NCBI GenBank assembly: GCA_029262355.1
Contig: JAJCZO010000221.1
Coordinates: forward strand, 1-64,000
DNA from: Deltaproteobacteria bacterium
GTDB lineage: Bacteria > Desulfobacterota > Binatia > UBA12015
Length of the DNA: 64,000 nt
Reading direction: 5' to 3'
In this document: positions 1,747 to 16,204 of the stretch, one piece after another
Layout of the letters: each line of letters begins with the position of its first letter
How positions within the stretch are numbered: position 1 is the first letter of the stretch
The notes under the pieces: model-generated
What the model saw: only the letters and a program-made list of their open reading frames with translations
Told to the model about the DNA's origin: nothing
Database searches by the model: none
Program-made: the position numbers and the translations under genes

Positions 1747-3185
1747 AGGTAGCCCAGGGAGCGAAGCTCCTCTTCGACGTGCGGAGCAAGGTCCGCGGGC
1801 TCCACCCGGCCGCTCGTCTGATCCTCTTGGCCACGGTAGACCTCTGCCAGAGCCGCCAGCTCGCGCGCGCGCGGGTCGTCGGAGGTTTCCAACAGCGGTG
1901 CCAGCTCTGATGGGTCGGCGGAGAGGTCGTACAACTTCGTCTCGCCCCTCTGAATCACGAGCTTGTGGTCGTCGAGGAAGACAGCAAGCGCGTTCTCGTC
2001 GCGCGGGCGCCGAGCCCGCTTCTTCGGGGTGAGACCGCGCACCTCGCTAAAATAGGGCCGCTCTTCGAGCTCCTCTCCCCGTAGGGCCGGGACGAGGCTG
2101 CGGCCGTCGATCGCCTCAGGCGCGGACAGGCCCACCATCTCGAGGATCGTCGGCGCGACATCGACCAGCCCCACGCGCGACGACACCCGACGCGGCTCGC
2201 CCTCGCGTGGGTCGTAAACGAGCAGCGGAACGTGCAGAACCGGCTCCCAGAGGCGAAACCCGTGGCCCACGTCGTCGTGCTCTCCAAGGAGCTGGCCGTG
2301 ATCGGCCGTGATCACGACGATCGTTCGCTCGGCATGTCCGGCCTTCTCGAGTGTCTCGAGGATCTGACCGACCGTGCGGTCCGCCTCGCGCGTCTGTCCG
2401 TCATACAATGCCCGGATGGCCGTGCGGTCCTCGTCACGCCACTCGTTCTTTGCCAGGTTGTAGAACTGCTGCACCGAGGCCCCCGCGGCCAGCGGCCCAT
2501 CGTAACCCGCGAGCTGCTCCTCGGAATACGGAGTCGGCTCGTAGGGCGAATGAGGTTGGAAGTAGTGCACCCACATGAAGAATGGGAACGGCCGCTTGCG
2601 CGAGAGGAGGCCCCGCGCCATGCCCGTCACCCGCACCGGGCTCGCGGCCACACTGTGCTCGCCGCTCTGTTCGTGGCTCGTCCGAACGAAGCCTTGCCCG
2701 AGTCCACCGCGGCTGACCATCGAGCCGTAGCTCACGAGAGCCATGGTCTCCCAGCCCGCCTCGCGCAGGGTCTCGGCCAACGTCTCGACCTCCTCGCCGA
2801 GCCGATCGCCGTTGTAGCGAACCCCGTGGCGACGCGGGTAGAGCCCGGTGAAGAGCGACGCGTGCGAGGGGAATGTCGTGCCCATCGGCGCCGTCGCCCG
2901 CTCGAAGACGACGGATTTCTCGGCGAGACGATCGATGTTCGGCGTATGCCCGCCCGGGTTTCCGTAGATCCCGAACGAGTCCGCACGCTGGGTGTCGACG
3001 GTGATGAGGAGAACGTTCGGCGGAGCCACCGTCACGGCAGGCTCTGGTGCTTCGGTGACCCTCTCGACCGCCCTCTCCTTTGGGGAATCCACGACCGGCT
3101 CGACGGGGGCTTCGGAGTTCGCACACGCGCCCGCCATCGCCACGAAGAACCCAAGCGCGACAATGCTCTTCGCGGTGGTCACCAC
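1740..3185 (-). CDS. Sulfatase-family (alkaline phosphatase superfamily) lipoprotein
   Basis: A 481-residue exported hydrolase of the sulfatase/phosphatase fold. A hydrophobic N-terminus ends near Cys21, a weak lipobox. The metal-binding opening NVLLITVDTQRADSFG lies at 57-72, the nucleophile region TTFPSHASLFTG at 103-114, and ITADHGQLLGEHDDVGHG carries the second metal site. The C-terminus LRSLGYL is typical of this subgroup. The formylglycine position, normally Cys or Ser in C/S-x-P-S-R, is Thr104 (TFPSH), so classical FGly sulfatase chemistry is doubtful; a phosphatase or phosphotransferase role is possible. The start is GTG, at 3185 or 3182. It ends convergently inside the last codons of the penicillin-binding protein gene. 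The substrate cannot be inferred. Confidence 0.85.
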   Translation of the reverse strand: MVTTAKSIVALGFFVAMAGACANSEAPVEPVVDSPKERAVERVTEAPEPAVTVAPPNVLLITVDTQRADSFGIYGNPGGHTPNIDRLAEKSVVFERATAPMGTTFPSHASLFTGLYPRRHGVRYNGDRLGEEVETLAETLREAGWETMALVSYGSMVSRGGLGQGFVRTSHEQSGEHSVAASPVRVTGMARGLLSRKRPFPFFMWVHYFQPHSPYEPTPYSEEQLAGYDGPLAAGASVQQFYNLAKNEWRDEDRTAIRALYDGQTREADRTVGQILETLEKAGHAERTIVVITADHGQLLGEHDDVGHGFRLWEPVLHVPLLVYDPREGEPRRVSSRVGLVDVAPTILEMVGLSAPEAIDGRSLVPALRGEELEERPYFSEVRGLTPKKRARRPRDENALAVFLDDHKLVIQRGETKLYDLSADPSELAPLLETSDDPRARELAALAEVYRGQEDQTSGRVEPADLAPHVEEELRSLGYLQ

Positions 3186-3213
3186 CGGAAAGATGTCACG
3201 CGGGGGTCGAGAG

Positions 3214-3378
3214 TCAAATCTCGAGGTCGGACCGGCGCGGCCTCATCTTCCGATCCAGCCGCCGTTCAACGAGGGCCCGCACGGGCGCAAGAAGGGTCGC
3301 GGCGATGAGCGGCACGAAGACCAGGACCGGCAGCAACGCCAGGGCTCGCATTGCGTTGAGCTTGATCGAAGGATCCAT
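3214..3378 (-). CDS. Possible small membrane protein upstream of the sulfatase
   Basis: An open frame of 54 codons beginning MDPSIKLNAMRALAL. It has one strong hydrophobic segment (about residues 12-32) followed by a basic tail (RRLDRKMRPRR), the pattern of a single-pass inner-membrane peptide. It ends 28 bases before the sulfatase start on the same strand. The frame extends upstream to 3480, where it would overlap the divergent gene at 3459, so the ATG at 3378 is preferred; its Shine-Dalgarno (AAGG) is too close to be convincing. No family recognised. It could be chance. Confidence 0.3.
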   Translation of the reverse strand: MDPSIKLNAMRALALLPVLVFVPLIAATLLAPVRALVERRLDRKMRPRRSDLEI

Positions 3379-3458
3379 CACCTTGAGGGTGCCTCGGGAC
3401 GGGCACCCGACGAAAGTCACTTTCTGCCCCCCGAGGCGTACCTCTGGTAAGGGCCCAC

Positions 3459-5840
<2,382 letters not shown>

Positions 5841-11502: not shown

Positions 11503-12074
11503 CCCCAGAAGAACCCCAGGGCACCGCAACCGCGAGCGACGCACGACCGTTCGTCCAGCGCATGACCGGCGCGCTTCAGCTGCAGGCCCCCGCCTACGAC
11601 GAGATTGCGGCGGACCCCCAGGCGACAAACCAAGCGGCGGTCGTGGTCGCGATCGCCGCTCTCGCGCAAGCGCTGGGCGGCCCAGAACGCATTCCGCTCG
11701 CCGATTTGCCGATTGCACTCTCGTGGGCGTACTTCAGCTGGCTCCTGCCTGGAACGCTCATGTGGGTCGTCGCGACGAAGATCCTCGGCCACGAAGCAAA
11801 CCTCCCACGCCTACTTCGATGCCTGGGGTTCGCAACAGTGCCCCAGGTCCTGTGGCTCGCGGGTCTGCTCTCCAGCGGCTCGATACCGTTCGAGCTCTCG
11901 CTTGGCGTACTCATCTTTGGGCTCGCGCTCGTCGGCAACGTCATCGCGATCCGTCAGGCCTTCGCGATCGACACGATCCGTGCGGTCCAGACTCTCCTGC
12001 TGGGGTTCCTGGCGTTCGTGGGGGTCGCCATGATCATCGGCTTCGTGCTCGAGCAGTTCGACACGGCCCTCTGA
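11499..12074 (+). CDS. Yip1-like integral membrane protein
   Basis: A 191-residue protein starting with GTG at 11499 inside the stop of the preceding gene; an ATG at 11562 is the alternative. After a soluble N-terminus it has five hydrophobic helices: around AAVVVAIAALAQAL, WAYFSWLLPGTLMWVVA, LGFATVPQVLWLAGLL, LGVLIFGLALVGNVIA and TLLLGFLAFVGVAMIIGFVL. The GFATVPQVL turn is characteristic of bacterial YIP1 domains. Function unknown; it is the last gene of the 8545-12074 coupled run. Confidence 0.7.
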   Translation: MTPEEPQGTATASDARPFVQRMTGALQLQAPAYDEIAADPQATNQAAVVVAIAALAQALGGPERIPLADLPIALSWAYFSWLLPGTLMWVVATKILGHEANLPRLLRCLGFATVPQVLWLAGLLSSGSIPFELSLGVLIFGLALVGNVIAIRQAFAIDTIRAVQTLLLGFLAFVGVAMIIGFVLEQFDTAL

Positions 12075-12147
12075 CCATCACCAGGGACGTGTCAAGCCTC
12101 GGCCCGCCTTGCACCCAACGGACGGACGGTGCTAGTTCGCGGCCGCC

Positions 12148-12822
12148 ATGGGATTTCTCTCTGCCTCCTCGACCATCGTCCGCTTGCACGCGAAACCCCC
12201 GCCCAACATGGACCGTGAAGCGATCGCTCGCGCGATCGAAGAGCGCGCGTTCCGTGACCACGACGAAGATGGGATGCCGAAACAGGAAGCGTTCGGTTGG
12301 GTCGCCATCCACGACCCGCTCGTGACGGAGTTCGACGCGAGCGATCTGTTCTTCCAGCAGTACCTCGTCGTCGGCTTTCGCTTCGATACCCGCGCCGTAC
12401 CCGCGAAGCTCTCGTGGATGGAGCGCCGTCGCCAGGAGGACGCGCGCCGGAGCGAGCAAGACGTCGAGAAGCTCAGCCGCGACACCAAGCGCGAGATCAA
12501 ACAGGACGTGGAGTCGAACTTGATGTCGCGCGCGCTTCCCAACCCGAAGCTGTTCGAATGCGCGTGGAACCTCGAGACCGAAGCTGTCTACTTCACGGGC
12601 AAGCTCAAGAGCGCACGGGAGACCTTTGCATCGCTCTTCCGTGAGACCTTCGGCGTCGCCCCGATTCCGATGATCCCCTACCTGGCCGTCGAGCGAGTCG
12701 GTCTCGCGGATGGCGTAGTGGACGCCGTACGGGGCGTCGAGCCGAGCCGCCTCGTCGCGGACGCGGTCGAGCCCAGCTTGAACGGCGACGGGAACACGGC
12801 CTTTGCGTCGGAGCCGGCATGA
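12148..12822 (+). CDS. RdgC-like protein (short deltaproteobacterial form)
   Basis: A 224-residue protein. It opens MGFLSASSTIVRLHAK and continues with FGWVAIHDPLVTEFDASDLF and FRFDTRAVPAKL, then a basic heptad-like helix (RRRQEDARRSEQDVEKLSRD) and the block ALPNPKLFECAWNLET. This order matches RdgC-type proteins, ring-shaped DNA-binding proteins that limit RecA, but it is shorter than E. coli RdgC (303). Its stop overlaps the next start by ATGA, so the two products are probably made together. Assignment rests on pattern recognition. Confidence 0.6.
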   Translation: MGFLSASSTIVRLHAKPPPNMDREAIARAIEERAFRDHDEDGMPKQEAFGWVAIHDPLVTEFDASDLFFQQYLVVGFRFDTRAVPAKLSWMERRRQEDARRSEQDVEKLSRDTKREIKQDVESNLMSRALPNPKLFECAWNLETEAVYFTGKLKSARETFASLFRETFGVAPIPMIPYLAVERVGLADGVVDAVRGVEPSRLVADAVEPSLNGDGNTAFASEPA

Positions 12823-13412
12823 AAGAGACGTTCCTTTCCGTAGTCGAGGAGAAGCGCTTTCTCGGGCGCGAGTTCCTGACCTGGCTGATCGGCCGCCTCG
12901 AAGAGGAAGGAGGCCGGTTCGAGATCGAGGGTGACATTCTCGAGCTCGCGCTCGGCGATCGACTGGTCCTCGAGGCAGGCGGCGATCCGGGCGCTCGGCT
13001 CTCCTTGGTCGACGAGGGGGACATCCGCCCCGAACTCGGAGCCGGGCTTCGCCGCGGCAAGCTCCTCGACCGGGCCCGTCTATCGATGACCCGGGGCGAG
13101 CGCCGCTGGGAGCTGACGCTCGATGGGGGCATGCTGACCTACGATTCCCTGCGCTGCCCGCCTCTGGGCGACCGCGACCCAGGCCTCCAGGACGATCGCC
13201 GCGCGGCGTTCGAGAACGACCTCTTCCTGCGCCTGGCCGACATCGAGGACGCCGTGAGCGTTCTCGACTGGCTCTTCGCGGCCTTCTGCCGGATCCGGGC
13301 ATCGCCCGCCTGGACGGACGCGACGCTTCCGACCCTCCGGACTTGGGTCGCGGAACTGGGGCGCGGGAGTGAGATGGCGCTGGCAGCGACGGCCGGCGGG
13401 GACGTCGATTAA
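12819..13412 (+). CDS. Unknown protein coupled to the RdgC-like gene
   Basis: A 197-residue soluble, acidic protein of no recognised family. It begins MKETFLSVVEEKRFLGREFLTW and continues with alternating strands (FEIEGDILELALGDRLVLE; RWELTLDGGMLTYDSLRCPP) and an aromatic helix (SVLDWLFAAFCRIR). The ATGA overlap with the RdgC-like gene implies coupled translation and probably a joint function in DNA metabolism. No signal peptide or membrane segment. Confidence 0.75.
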   Translation: MKETFLSVVEEKRFLGREFLTWLIGRLEEEGGRFEIEGDILELALGDRLVLEAGGDPGARLSLVDEGDIRPELGAGLRRGKLLDRARLSMTRGERRWELTLDGGMLTYDSLRCPPLGDRDPGLQDDRRAAFENDLFLRLADIEDAVSVLDWLFAAFCRIRASPAWTDATLPTLRTWVAELGRGSEMALAATAGGDVD

Positions 13413-13460: not shown

Positions 13461-14402
13461 ATGCCCGAGAAGGACCTGTATTCGGCCCTGGGGGTCGCGC
13501 GCGGCTCGACCCAGGACGAGATCCGCAAGGCGTACCGCAAACTTGCGCGTAAGCACCACCCAGACGTCAACCCGAACGATCCGAAAGCCGCCGATCGCTT
13601 CAAAGAGATCAGCTACGCCCACGACATCCTCGGCGACGAGAAGAAGCGCGGGCTGTACGATGAGTTCGGCGGGAAGGGGCTCGAGGCCGGTTTCGACGCG
13701 GATCAGGCGCGTGCGTACAAGCACTGGCAGGAAGGCGCGCGGCGCAGCCCATCGAACCAGGAGTTCACCTCCGAGGTCGACCTCGAGGACCTCCTGGGCG
13801 GCCTCGGGGGCTTCGGCGAGCGCTTCGGCTTCGGCCGACGGCGGGCGCCCCGCAAGGGCGCCGACGCCCAGGGCGAGGCGCCGATCGACTTTCTCGACGC
13901 AGTCCGCGGCGGCAAGGTCACGCTGCAGTTCGAAGGAAAAGGCGCGCTGCACATCACGATCCCGCCGGGTGCCAACGACGGCACGAAGATTCGCCTCGCC
14001 GGACAAGGAGCGCCGGGACCCGGCGGTGCGCCGCCGGGCGACCTGTACATCACGCTCCGCGTCCGCCCCCACCCGTTCTTCACCCGAAAAGGATCCGACG
14101 TCTACGTCGATCTTCCGGTGACGATCCCCGAGCTTCTACGCGGGGGCTCGATCCAAGTCCCGACGCCGGACGGTGCTGCGACCGTCAAAGTCCCGCCCCG
14201 ATCGGCAAACGGGGGCAAGCTCCGGCTGCGAGGCAAGGGCGCGACCAAGCGAGGATCGGAGACACGTGGCGATCTCTACGTGACGCTCTCTGCCGTTCTT
14301 CCGAAGGAGGGCGAAACAGGAGATCTGGAGAAGATCGCCGAGGCGATGGAACCTCTATACGGCAGCGCCGATGTGCGCGAACATCTGGGAAGAGCGCGAT
14401 GA
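13461..14402 (+). CDS. cbpA: J-domain co-chaperone, CbpA type
   Basis: A 313-residue Hsp40 of class B. The J-domain covers residues 1-70 with HPD at 33-35 (RKHHPDVNPND). There is no CxxCxGxG zinc-finger region. A short linker leads to the DnaJ C-terminal beta-domains (ITIPPGANDGTKIRLAGQG, GDLYITLRVRPHPFFTRKG, VDLPVTIPELLRGGSIQVPT). CbpA proteins stimulate DnaK and can bind DNA. The stop overlaps the start of the CbpM-like gene by ATGA, the arrangement known from E. coli cbpAM. Confidence 0.9.
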   Translation: MPEKDLYSALGVARGSTQDEIRKAYRKLARKHHPDVNPNDPKAADRFKEISYAHDILGDEKKRGLYDEFGGKGLEAGFDADQARAYKHWQEGARRSPSNQEFTSEVDLEDLLGGLGGFGERFGFGRRRAPRKGADAQGEAPIDFLDAVRGGKVTLQFEGKGALHITIPPGANDGTKIRLAGQGAPGPGGAPPGDLYITLRVRPHPFFTRKGSDVYVDLPVTIPELLRGGSIQVPTPDGAATVKVPPRSANGGKLRLRGKGATKRGSETRGDLYVTLSAVLPKEGETGDLEKIAEAMEPLYGSADVREHLGRAR

Positions 14403-14689
14403 AGTACTTCAGCCGAACGCAGGTCGTCGAAATCCTCTCCATCGAGGAGTCGTTCCTCGTCATGCTCGAGCAGGAGGAGATCGTACAGATCGATGCGCAG
14501 GACACCGCGGCCGATGCGCACTACTCGGAGATGATGCTCGAACGTGCTCGCGTCGCCGACAACCTCGTCCACGAACTCGACGTCAACCTAGCCGGCGTCG
14601 CAGTGATCTTGCAGATGCGGGAAAACCTGGCCGACCTTCGTCATCAGCTCGAAGCGGCGCTCAACGAGCTGCGCGAGCACAAGCGATGA
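14399..14689 (+). CDS. cbpM: Chaperone modulator CbpM-like protein
   Basis: A 96-residue protein with a MerR-like helix-turn-helix opening (YFSRTQVVEILSIEESFLVML) and a C-terminal coiled helix (LQMRENLADLRHQLEAALNEL). This is the layout of CbpM, which binds the CbpA J-domain and blocks DnaK stimulation. ATGA overlap with cbpA supports the pairing and near-equal synthesis. E. coli CbpM has 101 residues. Confidence 0.85.
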   Translation: MKYFSRTQVVEILSIEESFLVMLEQEEIVQIDAQDTAADAHYSEMMLERARVADNLVHELDVNLAGVAVILQMRENLADLRHQLEAALNELREHKR

Positions 14690-15501: not shown

Positions 15502-15846
15502 ATGAAGAGGCTAGTCCCATCGGGCGTGACGACCATCCTGTTCGTAGTGGCCATCGTCGCAGCGATCGGCGCGATGGGCTACAAGCGCTACCGCAAAACC
15601 AACCAACAGAAGGTCAGTGCGGAGCGCCCCGGAGCCAGCTCCGACAACGCGATCTACATCCGATCGTTCAACGAGATGGACGAGCACGTCCGCAAGCGCT
15701 GGTGCTCGTGCGGAGGATTTCTCGAACTCATCGGCGAAGGGACGCGAGAACGCGACAGCCGTCGGTTTCGTGTGGCTCGCATGGAATGCCACGAGTGTGA
15801 AGAGACCAGCGAGGTCTTCTTCGATACGACAGACTTGCTGCAGTAG
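15502..15846 (+). CDS. Membrane-anchored zinc-ribbon-like protein, unknown function
   Basis: A 114-residue protein with an N-terminal anchor (TILFVVAIVAAIGAMGY), a short polar stretch and a Cys-rich C-terminus with paired knuckles CSCGG and CHEC about 30 residues apart. This looks like a zinc ribbon. No family name recognised. The gene lies divergent to ppa with only 18 bases between them and converges on the small secreted protein at 15872. Confidence 0.7.
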   Translation: MKRLVPSGVTTILFVVAIVAAIGAMGYKRYRKTNQQKVSAERPGASSDNAIYIRSFNEMDEHVRKRWCSCGGFLELIGEGTRERDSRRFRVARMECHECEETSEVFFDTTDLLQ

Positions 15847-15871
15847 CGCCGGGTGACGGAGTCGACCGCTC

Positions 15872-16204
15872 CTACTCCTCGCCAGCCGCCAGTTCGCCCT
15901 TTTTCATGATCTCGAGGCTCTCGGTCGTGCCCGGCTTCACACGCGGCTCGAGATTGCCGGTGGCCGCGGCCGTGCCGAAGCCCATGACCGACCCCTGGTC
16001 GTTGATCGTGTCGTCGAGATCGCCGTTTGAGCGGATGATCTTGAGGGTGCTCTTGCGCTCGAAACGCGGGTCCATGGCCTCCAAGGGGTCCATACCCTTC
16101 CAGGAGTCCGACTGGGCCAGAGCCGTGGAGTGAGCGGCGGCCAAAGCCGCACCCAGCGCCAGTCCGGCAATCCACTTCATCACTCGAGTAACGTCCATCA
16201 TCAT
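15872..16204 (-). CDS. Small secreted protein, unknown function
   Basis: A 110-residue product with a clear signal peptide (WIAGLALGAALAAAHSTALAQ, cut here by the writing limit at its first residue) and a polar mature part of ~80 residues (DPLEAMDPRFERKST, MKKGELAAGEE) without Cys. No family recognised. ATG at 16204; the next ATGs are two and three codons in. Transcribed away from the histidine kinase at 16327. Confidence 0.6.
   Translation of the reverse strand: MMMDVTRVMKWIAGLALGAALAAAHSTALAQSDSWKGMDPLEAMDPRFERKSTLKIIRSNGDLDDTINDQGSVMGFGTAAATGNLEPRVKPGTTESLEIMKKGELAAGEE

Follow-up and report, generated by a model that had tools for sequence, protein, structure and literature searches.

RdgC is described, in the available excerpts of PMC11077077, as a protein with three parts, namely a centre domain, a tip of two helices inserted in that centre, and a base composed of a five-stranded sheet and four helices, with the base and the tip providing the dimer contacts. 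The solved RdgC structures, from E. coli and P. aeruginosa, are those of single-chain proteins. In the same excerpts, the kinetochore pair Iml3-Chl4 is presented as a DNA-contacting heterodimer that resembles RdgC (PMC11077077). Here we report on a locus in a 64,000-nucleotide stretch (hereafter, the window) of a Deltaproteobacteria bacterium (Binatia, UBA12015; assembly GCA_029262355.1, contig JAJCZO010000221.1, positions 1 to 64,000), where two overlapping genes on the forward strand together account for the parts of RdgC. Gene 1 (12148–12822, + strand) encodes 224 amino acids (aa) and gene 2 (12819–13412, + strand) encodes 197 aa. A preliminary description made from the sequence had delineated the same open reading frames (ORFs) and their ATGA overlap at 12819–12822, as we also found them, and had taken the pair to be an RdgC-like gene with a separate partner. 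The pair is very probably one RdgC cut at the border between centre/tip and base, i.e., a two-subunit RdgC.

Gene 1 is the N-terminal half of RdgC

Gene 1 was matched by the RdgC family profile PF04381 with 26.7 bits (Pfam cut-off 25; E = 4.3e-6), so its earlier designation as RdgC-like holds, and the match covered only positions 16–162 of the 298 in the profile. Similar limits were found with phrog_724 (“exonuclease recombination-associated”; profile positions 13–163 of 312, E = 4.5e-10), and in a profile-profile comparison of the gene 1 family with canonical RdgC, represented by the E. coli protein and 24 copies from viral contigs, which aligned E. coli residues 10–160 (E = 4.6e-13). These regions comprise the centre and tip domains. 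A phmmer search of gene 1 against PDB sequences gave no match. The NCBIfam RdgC equivalog model NF001462 gave gene 1 25.1 bits versus the 330 required, thus it could not be called an E. coli-type RdgC equivalog. The gene is short because the C-terminal half of RdgC is absent from it. The window's genome (7.77 Mb in 453 contigs) had its sole PF04381 match (at E 0.001) at this locus. In a near relative (L003, genome G001), gene 1 as read is 301 aa long, being extended at its C terminus by a long tail with near-repeats in which Ala, Glu and Thr abound.

The predicted fold of gene 2 matches the RdgC base domain

Gene 2 had no match among the Pfam and NCBIfam models at E values up to 5, or among those of PHROGs and PADLOC at values up to 0.1, and a search of viral contigs with it returned no relative. 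The gene 2 family had a single match among PDB sequences, 7urp (E = 0.0036 for the whole sequence and 0.41 for the best stretch), which was judged to be a chance match. The preliminary statement that gene 2 belongs to no known family is thus true of the sequence libraries only.

The family alignments were built from 68 sequences (the window and 67 split loci), 64 of which were used for gene 2 (profile A2) and 55 for gene 1 (profile A4). Gene 2 carries a conserved FLGREFLTWL motif, in a helix, near its N terminus. The AlphaFold2 model of gene 2, made with the 64 sequences, had a mean pLDDT of 84.8. Its best PDB matches by Foldseek were the RdgC proteins of E. coli and P. aeruginosa (E = 1.8e-3, 4.5e-3 and 1.3e-2, with a probability of 1.00), followed by a row with a probability of 0.38. 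In structural alignment, the model was placed on residues 170–306 of 2owy (Z = 9.6, rmsd of 5.3 Å, 135 residues) and on residues 170–302 of 2owl (Z = 9.4, 3.2 Å, 130 residues), with the row below RdgC reaching only Z = 5.0. Given that gene 1 ends at position 162 of the RdgC profile and gene 2 matches from residue 170, the two halves are complementary and non-overlapping. On the evidence gathered, including its predicted structure, gene 2 is the C-terminal (base) half of RdgC, with the match to the whole protein found across two genes and not within one.

The two genes occur together and side by side

Of 98 kin genomes, counting that of the window, 14 carried gene 1 and the same 14 carried gene 2, with the two adjacent on one strand; this arrangement is beyond chance. 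In the window, the start codon of gene 2 overlaps the stop codon of gene 1 (ATGA, 12819–12822, + strand). Eleven of the 14 kin loci had a 4-base overlap, one had a 1-base overlap and two lacked a reading, and the 4-base overlap was kept even in G001 despite the 301-aa gene 1 of that genome. A Shine-Dalgarno-like GGAG (12810–12813, + strand), recognized from sequence alone, lies 5 bases 5' of the gene 2 ATG.

We extended the survey to 247 genomes of the phylum using the two family profiles, and found gene 2 in 117 genomes and gene 1 in the identical 117. Six weak gene 2 rows (G304 15623–15886, G143 C580 and four of G237) and five weak gene 1 rows (G173 C50 and four of G237) were left out of this count; the omitted G237 rows are mostly the short RdgCs of that genome. 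Among the 119 phylum loci, 74 had the halves as separate ORFs on the same strand with gene 1 upstream, 44 had them in a single open frame, and one (in G309, with gene 2 near a contig start) had them on two contigs. All 44 fusions were confirmed as single ORFs at the DNA level.

A set of loci from named genomes (80 kept of 155 relatives) contained both halves in 78 cases, as two ORFs in 67 and fused in 11. One of the 80 loci (L086) is cut by a contig end, and gene 1 is present on another contig of its genome. By their titles, the records of this set belong to Binatia, to Desulfomonile and further deltaproteobacteria, to Myxococcus and its kin, to Planctomycetota, and to Candidatus Uabimicrobium. 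A 9.0 Mb record titled Comamonas sp. KCTC 72670 (L061) has a split pair spaced as in the Myxococcus loci, and its name may be wrong or its assembly mixed.

The gene-neighbour survey therefore confirms the two genes as a fixed unit, as the preliminary description had supposed. Gene 2 without gene 1 in most genomes, the pattern that it had named as speaking against the pair, was clearly not what we found: the two genes shared the same 117 of 247 phylum genomes, and one lone gene 2 was seen in another genome (L039, see below).

Single-ORF versions link gene 2 to full-length RdgC

The 11 fused proteins of the named loci are 345–374 aa long as trimmed, and are arranged as the RdgC N-terminal half, a linker, and the gene 2 hallmark LGREFLTWLW with the remainder of gene 2. 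Pfam recognized only the N-terminal half in the six fusions tested and in L147, which explains why gene 2 seems to be without a family. For one natural fusion (L059), an AlphaFold2 model made with 11 sequences had a mean pLDDT of 75.4. This model superposed on full-length RdgC (residues 1–299) with Z = 21.4 and an rmsd of 2.8 and 2.6 Å over 289 residues, and matched 2owl by Foldseek with E = 6.8e-15. The preliminary proposal that gene 2 is a new and separate component of recombination control is not sustained, as 44 of the 119 loci have both genes in one ORF and the fused model superposes on the whole of RdgC.

A link at the sequence level was provided by two short single-ORF RdgCs of canonical length from one genome (L144 and L145, G237), which PF04381 matched over profile positions 24–253 and 24–254, respectively. 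The canonical RdgC profile spans them from position 25–26 to 255. The gene 1 profile matched the first half of L144 and L145 (E = 1.1e-32 and 4e-32, respectively), and the gene 2 profile matched the collinear second half (profile positions 66–141 and 54–142; E = 1.9e-6 and 8e-7 when seven loci were searched, and 1.3e-4 and 4.8e-5 genome-wide). Being matched in order by both half-profiles, these proteins connect gene 2 with the C-terminal half of RdgC by sequence. Taking models and profile matches together, whole-length collinearity with RdgC is seen via relatives (L059, L144 and L145), and not on the window's own chains.

Several genomes carry more than one version. G237 (L144, L145 and L146) has several short single-ORF RdgC copies of canonical length and partial copies beside its own split pair, including a C-terminal fragment (L145, 3572–3907) near an intact RdgC copy. 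G330 (L147 and L149) and G245 (L148 and L150) each have one fused and one split RdgC copy.

Evidence against a divided RdgC

Some observations weigh against the interpretation of the pair as a divided RdgC. Gene 2 alone finds no RdgC by ordinary profile search (Pfam; PDB sequences), and its profile-profile alignment with canonical RdgC is at the right place but marginal (P = 0.0028, probability of 11%), for which reason we relied on structure and bridging sequences instead. The structural evidence has its own limits: for gene 2 alone, the Foldseek E value of 1.8e-3 came with a TM of 0.47, the Z of 9.4–9.6 is to be read against a typical best Z of 7–8 for models without a clear match, and the L059 model is of middling confidence, being weak at 198–208, 254–267 and 317–323.

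The halves can also be separated. In L039 (G101, a genome of 3.7 Mb), gene 2 (2989–3531) lies directly after an RNase HII gene and gene 1 was not found genome-wide, so either the base domain stands alone at this locus or the assembly is incomplete. Family f30 has four loci (L139 in G117, L140 in G189, L141 in G217, and L143 in G154) in which the halves are 1.5–2.9 kb apart, with an intervening same-strand gene that encodes a tetratricopeptide repeat (TPR) protein. The intervening protein is 510–660 aa long as listed, its TPRs were identified by Pfam in L139 and L140 and by eye in L141 and L143, and by eye it has a membrane-anchor-like start; its gene is either that of a third subunit or an insertion. 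A fifth f30 genome, G269, has a 254-base gap between the matched parts of the halves.

Alternatively, gene 1 could be a complete, if short, RdgC that is bound and controlled by gene 2 as a distinct accessory protein. That gene 2 is a separate gene without a sequence-family match would agree with this, as would the TPR-protein gene that parts the two genes in the four loci. We consider this quite improbable, given that the fold of gene 2 is exactly the RdgC part absent from gene 1, that 44 natural fusions encode both in a single ORF, and that the gene 2 signal appears at the collinear place in canonical-length RdgCs. The accessory-protein explanation is largely refuted by the structure matches and the L144/L145 bridge.

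Selection, spacing and the history of the junction

Both genes were found to be under purifying selection in the comparison with five relatives, with pN/pS of 0.13–0.32 for gene 1 and 0.15–0.34 for gene 2. The spacing between the halves was profiled in 112 pairs counted as split, a set that includes L145, which was wrongly counted as such. A total of 91 pairs were separated by ≤50 bases, 16 by 51–300 bases, and 5 (L145 among them) by more. As the spacing was measured from the start codon nearest to the aligned part, overlaps are undercounted in these figures (9 of −4 and 6 of −1). Gene 2 was in the same frame as gene 1 in 30 of the pairs, and in the other two frames in 36 and 46. The loose spacing and the use of all three frames argue for two chains, probably translated from a single transcript, and against a programmed frameshift as the general mechanism.

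A programmed −1 frameshift at the ATGA, producing a full-length fusion besides gene 1 so that the active protein would be one chain, is suggested by the 4-base ORF overlap in 11 of 14 kin loci, and we see only a slight chance of it. Beyond the variable relative frame of the 112 pairs (with L145 mislabelled), the gaps between ORFs range from overlaps to >100 bases, the overlap in the kin genome G073 is TGATG and thus in another frame, and no slippery heptamer was seen in the kin junctions, which were inspected by eye with no scan made. That an error of assembly or sequencing, or a recent frameshift, has broken what is really a single ordinary RdgC gene, as the fused single-ORF form in relatives might suggest, can be dismissed with near certainty, because the halves are in different open frames in 14 of 14 kin loci and 74 of 119 phylum loci, a start codon and a Shine-Dalgarno-like site belong to gene 2 itself, and both genes are under purifying selection.

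To place the divided and fused forms on a tree, we used an input of 170 sequences, made up of those of all 44 fused phylum loci, 46 of the 74 split ones, 78 complete named loci, L144 and L145, from which seven identical rows were dropped. The states were counted on 161 joined sequences (50 fused and 111 split), without L144 and L145. At least nine changes between split and fused were required on the unrooted tree, of which 7 or 5, depending on the model, were forced by well-supported branches, compared with 43 in shuffles. Splitting and joining at the border of centre and base has thus been recurrent. The tree contains long branches that meet, and its root, hence the direction (split or fused first), is not fixed.

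Proposed working of a two-subunit RdgC

In a two-subunit RdgC, gene 1 would supply the centre domain with its two-helix tip, and gene 2 would supply the base domain. The ring of E. coli RdgC is closed by two dimer contacts, of which the base is one. The ATGA probably couples the translation of gene 2 to that of gene 1, and by this coupling the halves would be made together. By analogy with RdgC, they would most likely bind each other and form an (AB)2 ring or horseshoe. Such a ring may encircle duplex DNA without sequence preference and limit RecA activity, as E. coli RdgC does.

A more far-reaching idea, which we put forward as possible though unlikely, is that the RdgC ring is a two-subunit machine with an exchangeable base and centre/tip, opening and closing at the subunit joint for DNA loading and unloading or being regulated by the supply of one half, and that in one lineage the TPR protein is a third subunit tethering or regulating the ring. 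If true, the border at which splitting and joining recur would be a working hinge and not a neutral break.

With the split form recognized, a conserved protein that the searched family libraries miss acquires a family name; either split or fused, it occurs in 117 of the 247 phylum genomes. Labelling the first half alone as RdgC overlooks the subunit with the base dimer contact. The domain border also offers a natural cut point, with which ring opening could be addressed and the roles of base and tip could be separated by omitting one gene, without protein engineering.

Genomic surroundings of the pair

The genes upstream of the pair encode an ABC1-like kinase, a protein with an ABM domain, and one that matches Yip1 below threshold, and downstream are those for a DnaJ protein, a MerR_2 protein and, on the opposite strand, an inorganic pyrophosphatase. 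The DnaJ-domain gene (13461–14402) and the MerR_2 gene (14399–14689) share a 4-base ATGA overlap (14399–14402), so an ATGA join alone is not remarkable in this genome. We take this pair (13461–14689) to resemble the CbpA-CbpM pair. In a crude motif scan of loci L030–L109 (n = 80) with flanks of ≤3 kb, a DnaJ gene was found in L030 only and an RNase HII gene in L039 only. With such narrow motifs and short flanks, the scan faintly suggests that the gene 1–gene 2 pair may move as its own unit, without a conserved neighbourhood.

An antisense ORF of 422 aa (12034–13302, − strand) spans the greater part of gene 1 and of gene 2. In five relatives, the longest stretch left open on the antisense strand of this region was 160–271 of 404–413 codons, and because the frame is not kept open there we rejected this ORF, which is probably a by-product of GC-rich codon use.

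Comparison with known systems

No match to gene 1, gene 2 or L059 was found among the PADLOC defence models (E up to 0.1), though absence from this library is not decisive. Among the matches listed in the open-access literature searched, a scope outside which most subscription journals lie, we found no description of a split RdgC.

Three other systems were compared. RexA of phage lambda is described, in the available excerpts of PMC11077077, as structurally related to the centre and base domains of RdgC and as binding DNA non-specifically; compared by description only, it differs in being one chain, whose alignment takes in just the centre and base, with its partner RexB a separate protein. 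The “RdgC histone” operon is conserved and encodes an RdgC-like protein, described in the accessible part of PMC11390915 as having two additional small domains. Kinetochore chains including Iml3 ranked below RdgC for the fused model, with weak Z scores of 5.1–7.0. According to the excerpts of PMC11077077, Iml3-Chl4 and CENP-N-CENP-L of the inner kinetochore have both domains in each chain, whereas here one chain is split.

The closest system is the RdgC of E. coli and P. aeruginosa (PF04381; 2owl and 2owy), which gene 1 resembles in its centre and tip by sequence and gene 2 in its base by predicted fold, and on which the natural fused relative L059 superposes over residues 1–299 with Z = 21.4. 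The differences are the low identity in structural alignment (13–15% for gene 2 and 16% for the fused relative), the conserved FLGREFLTWL helix near the start of gene 2, and the encoding by two genes of what is usually a single chain of ~303 aa (a usual feature that the Pfam definition does not include). As the window has two ORFs instead of a single chain of ~300 aa, we class the pair as a split variant of RdgC.
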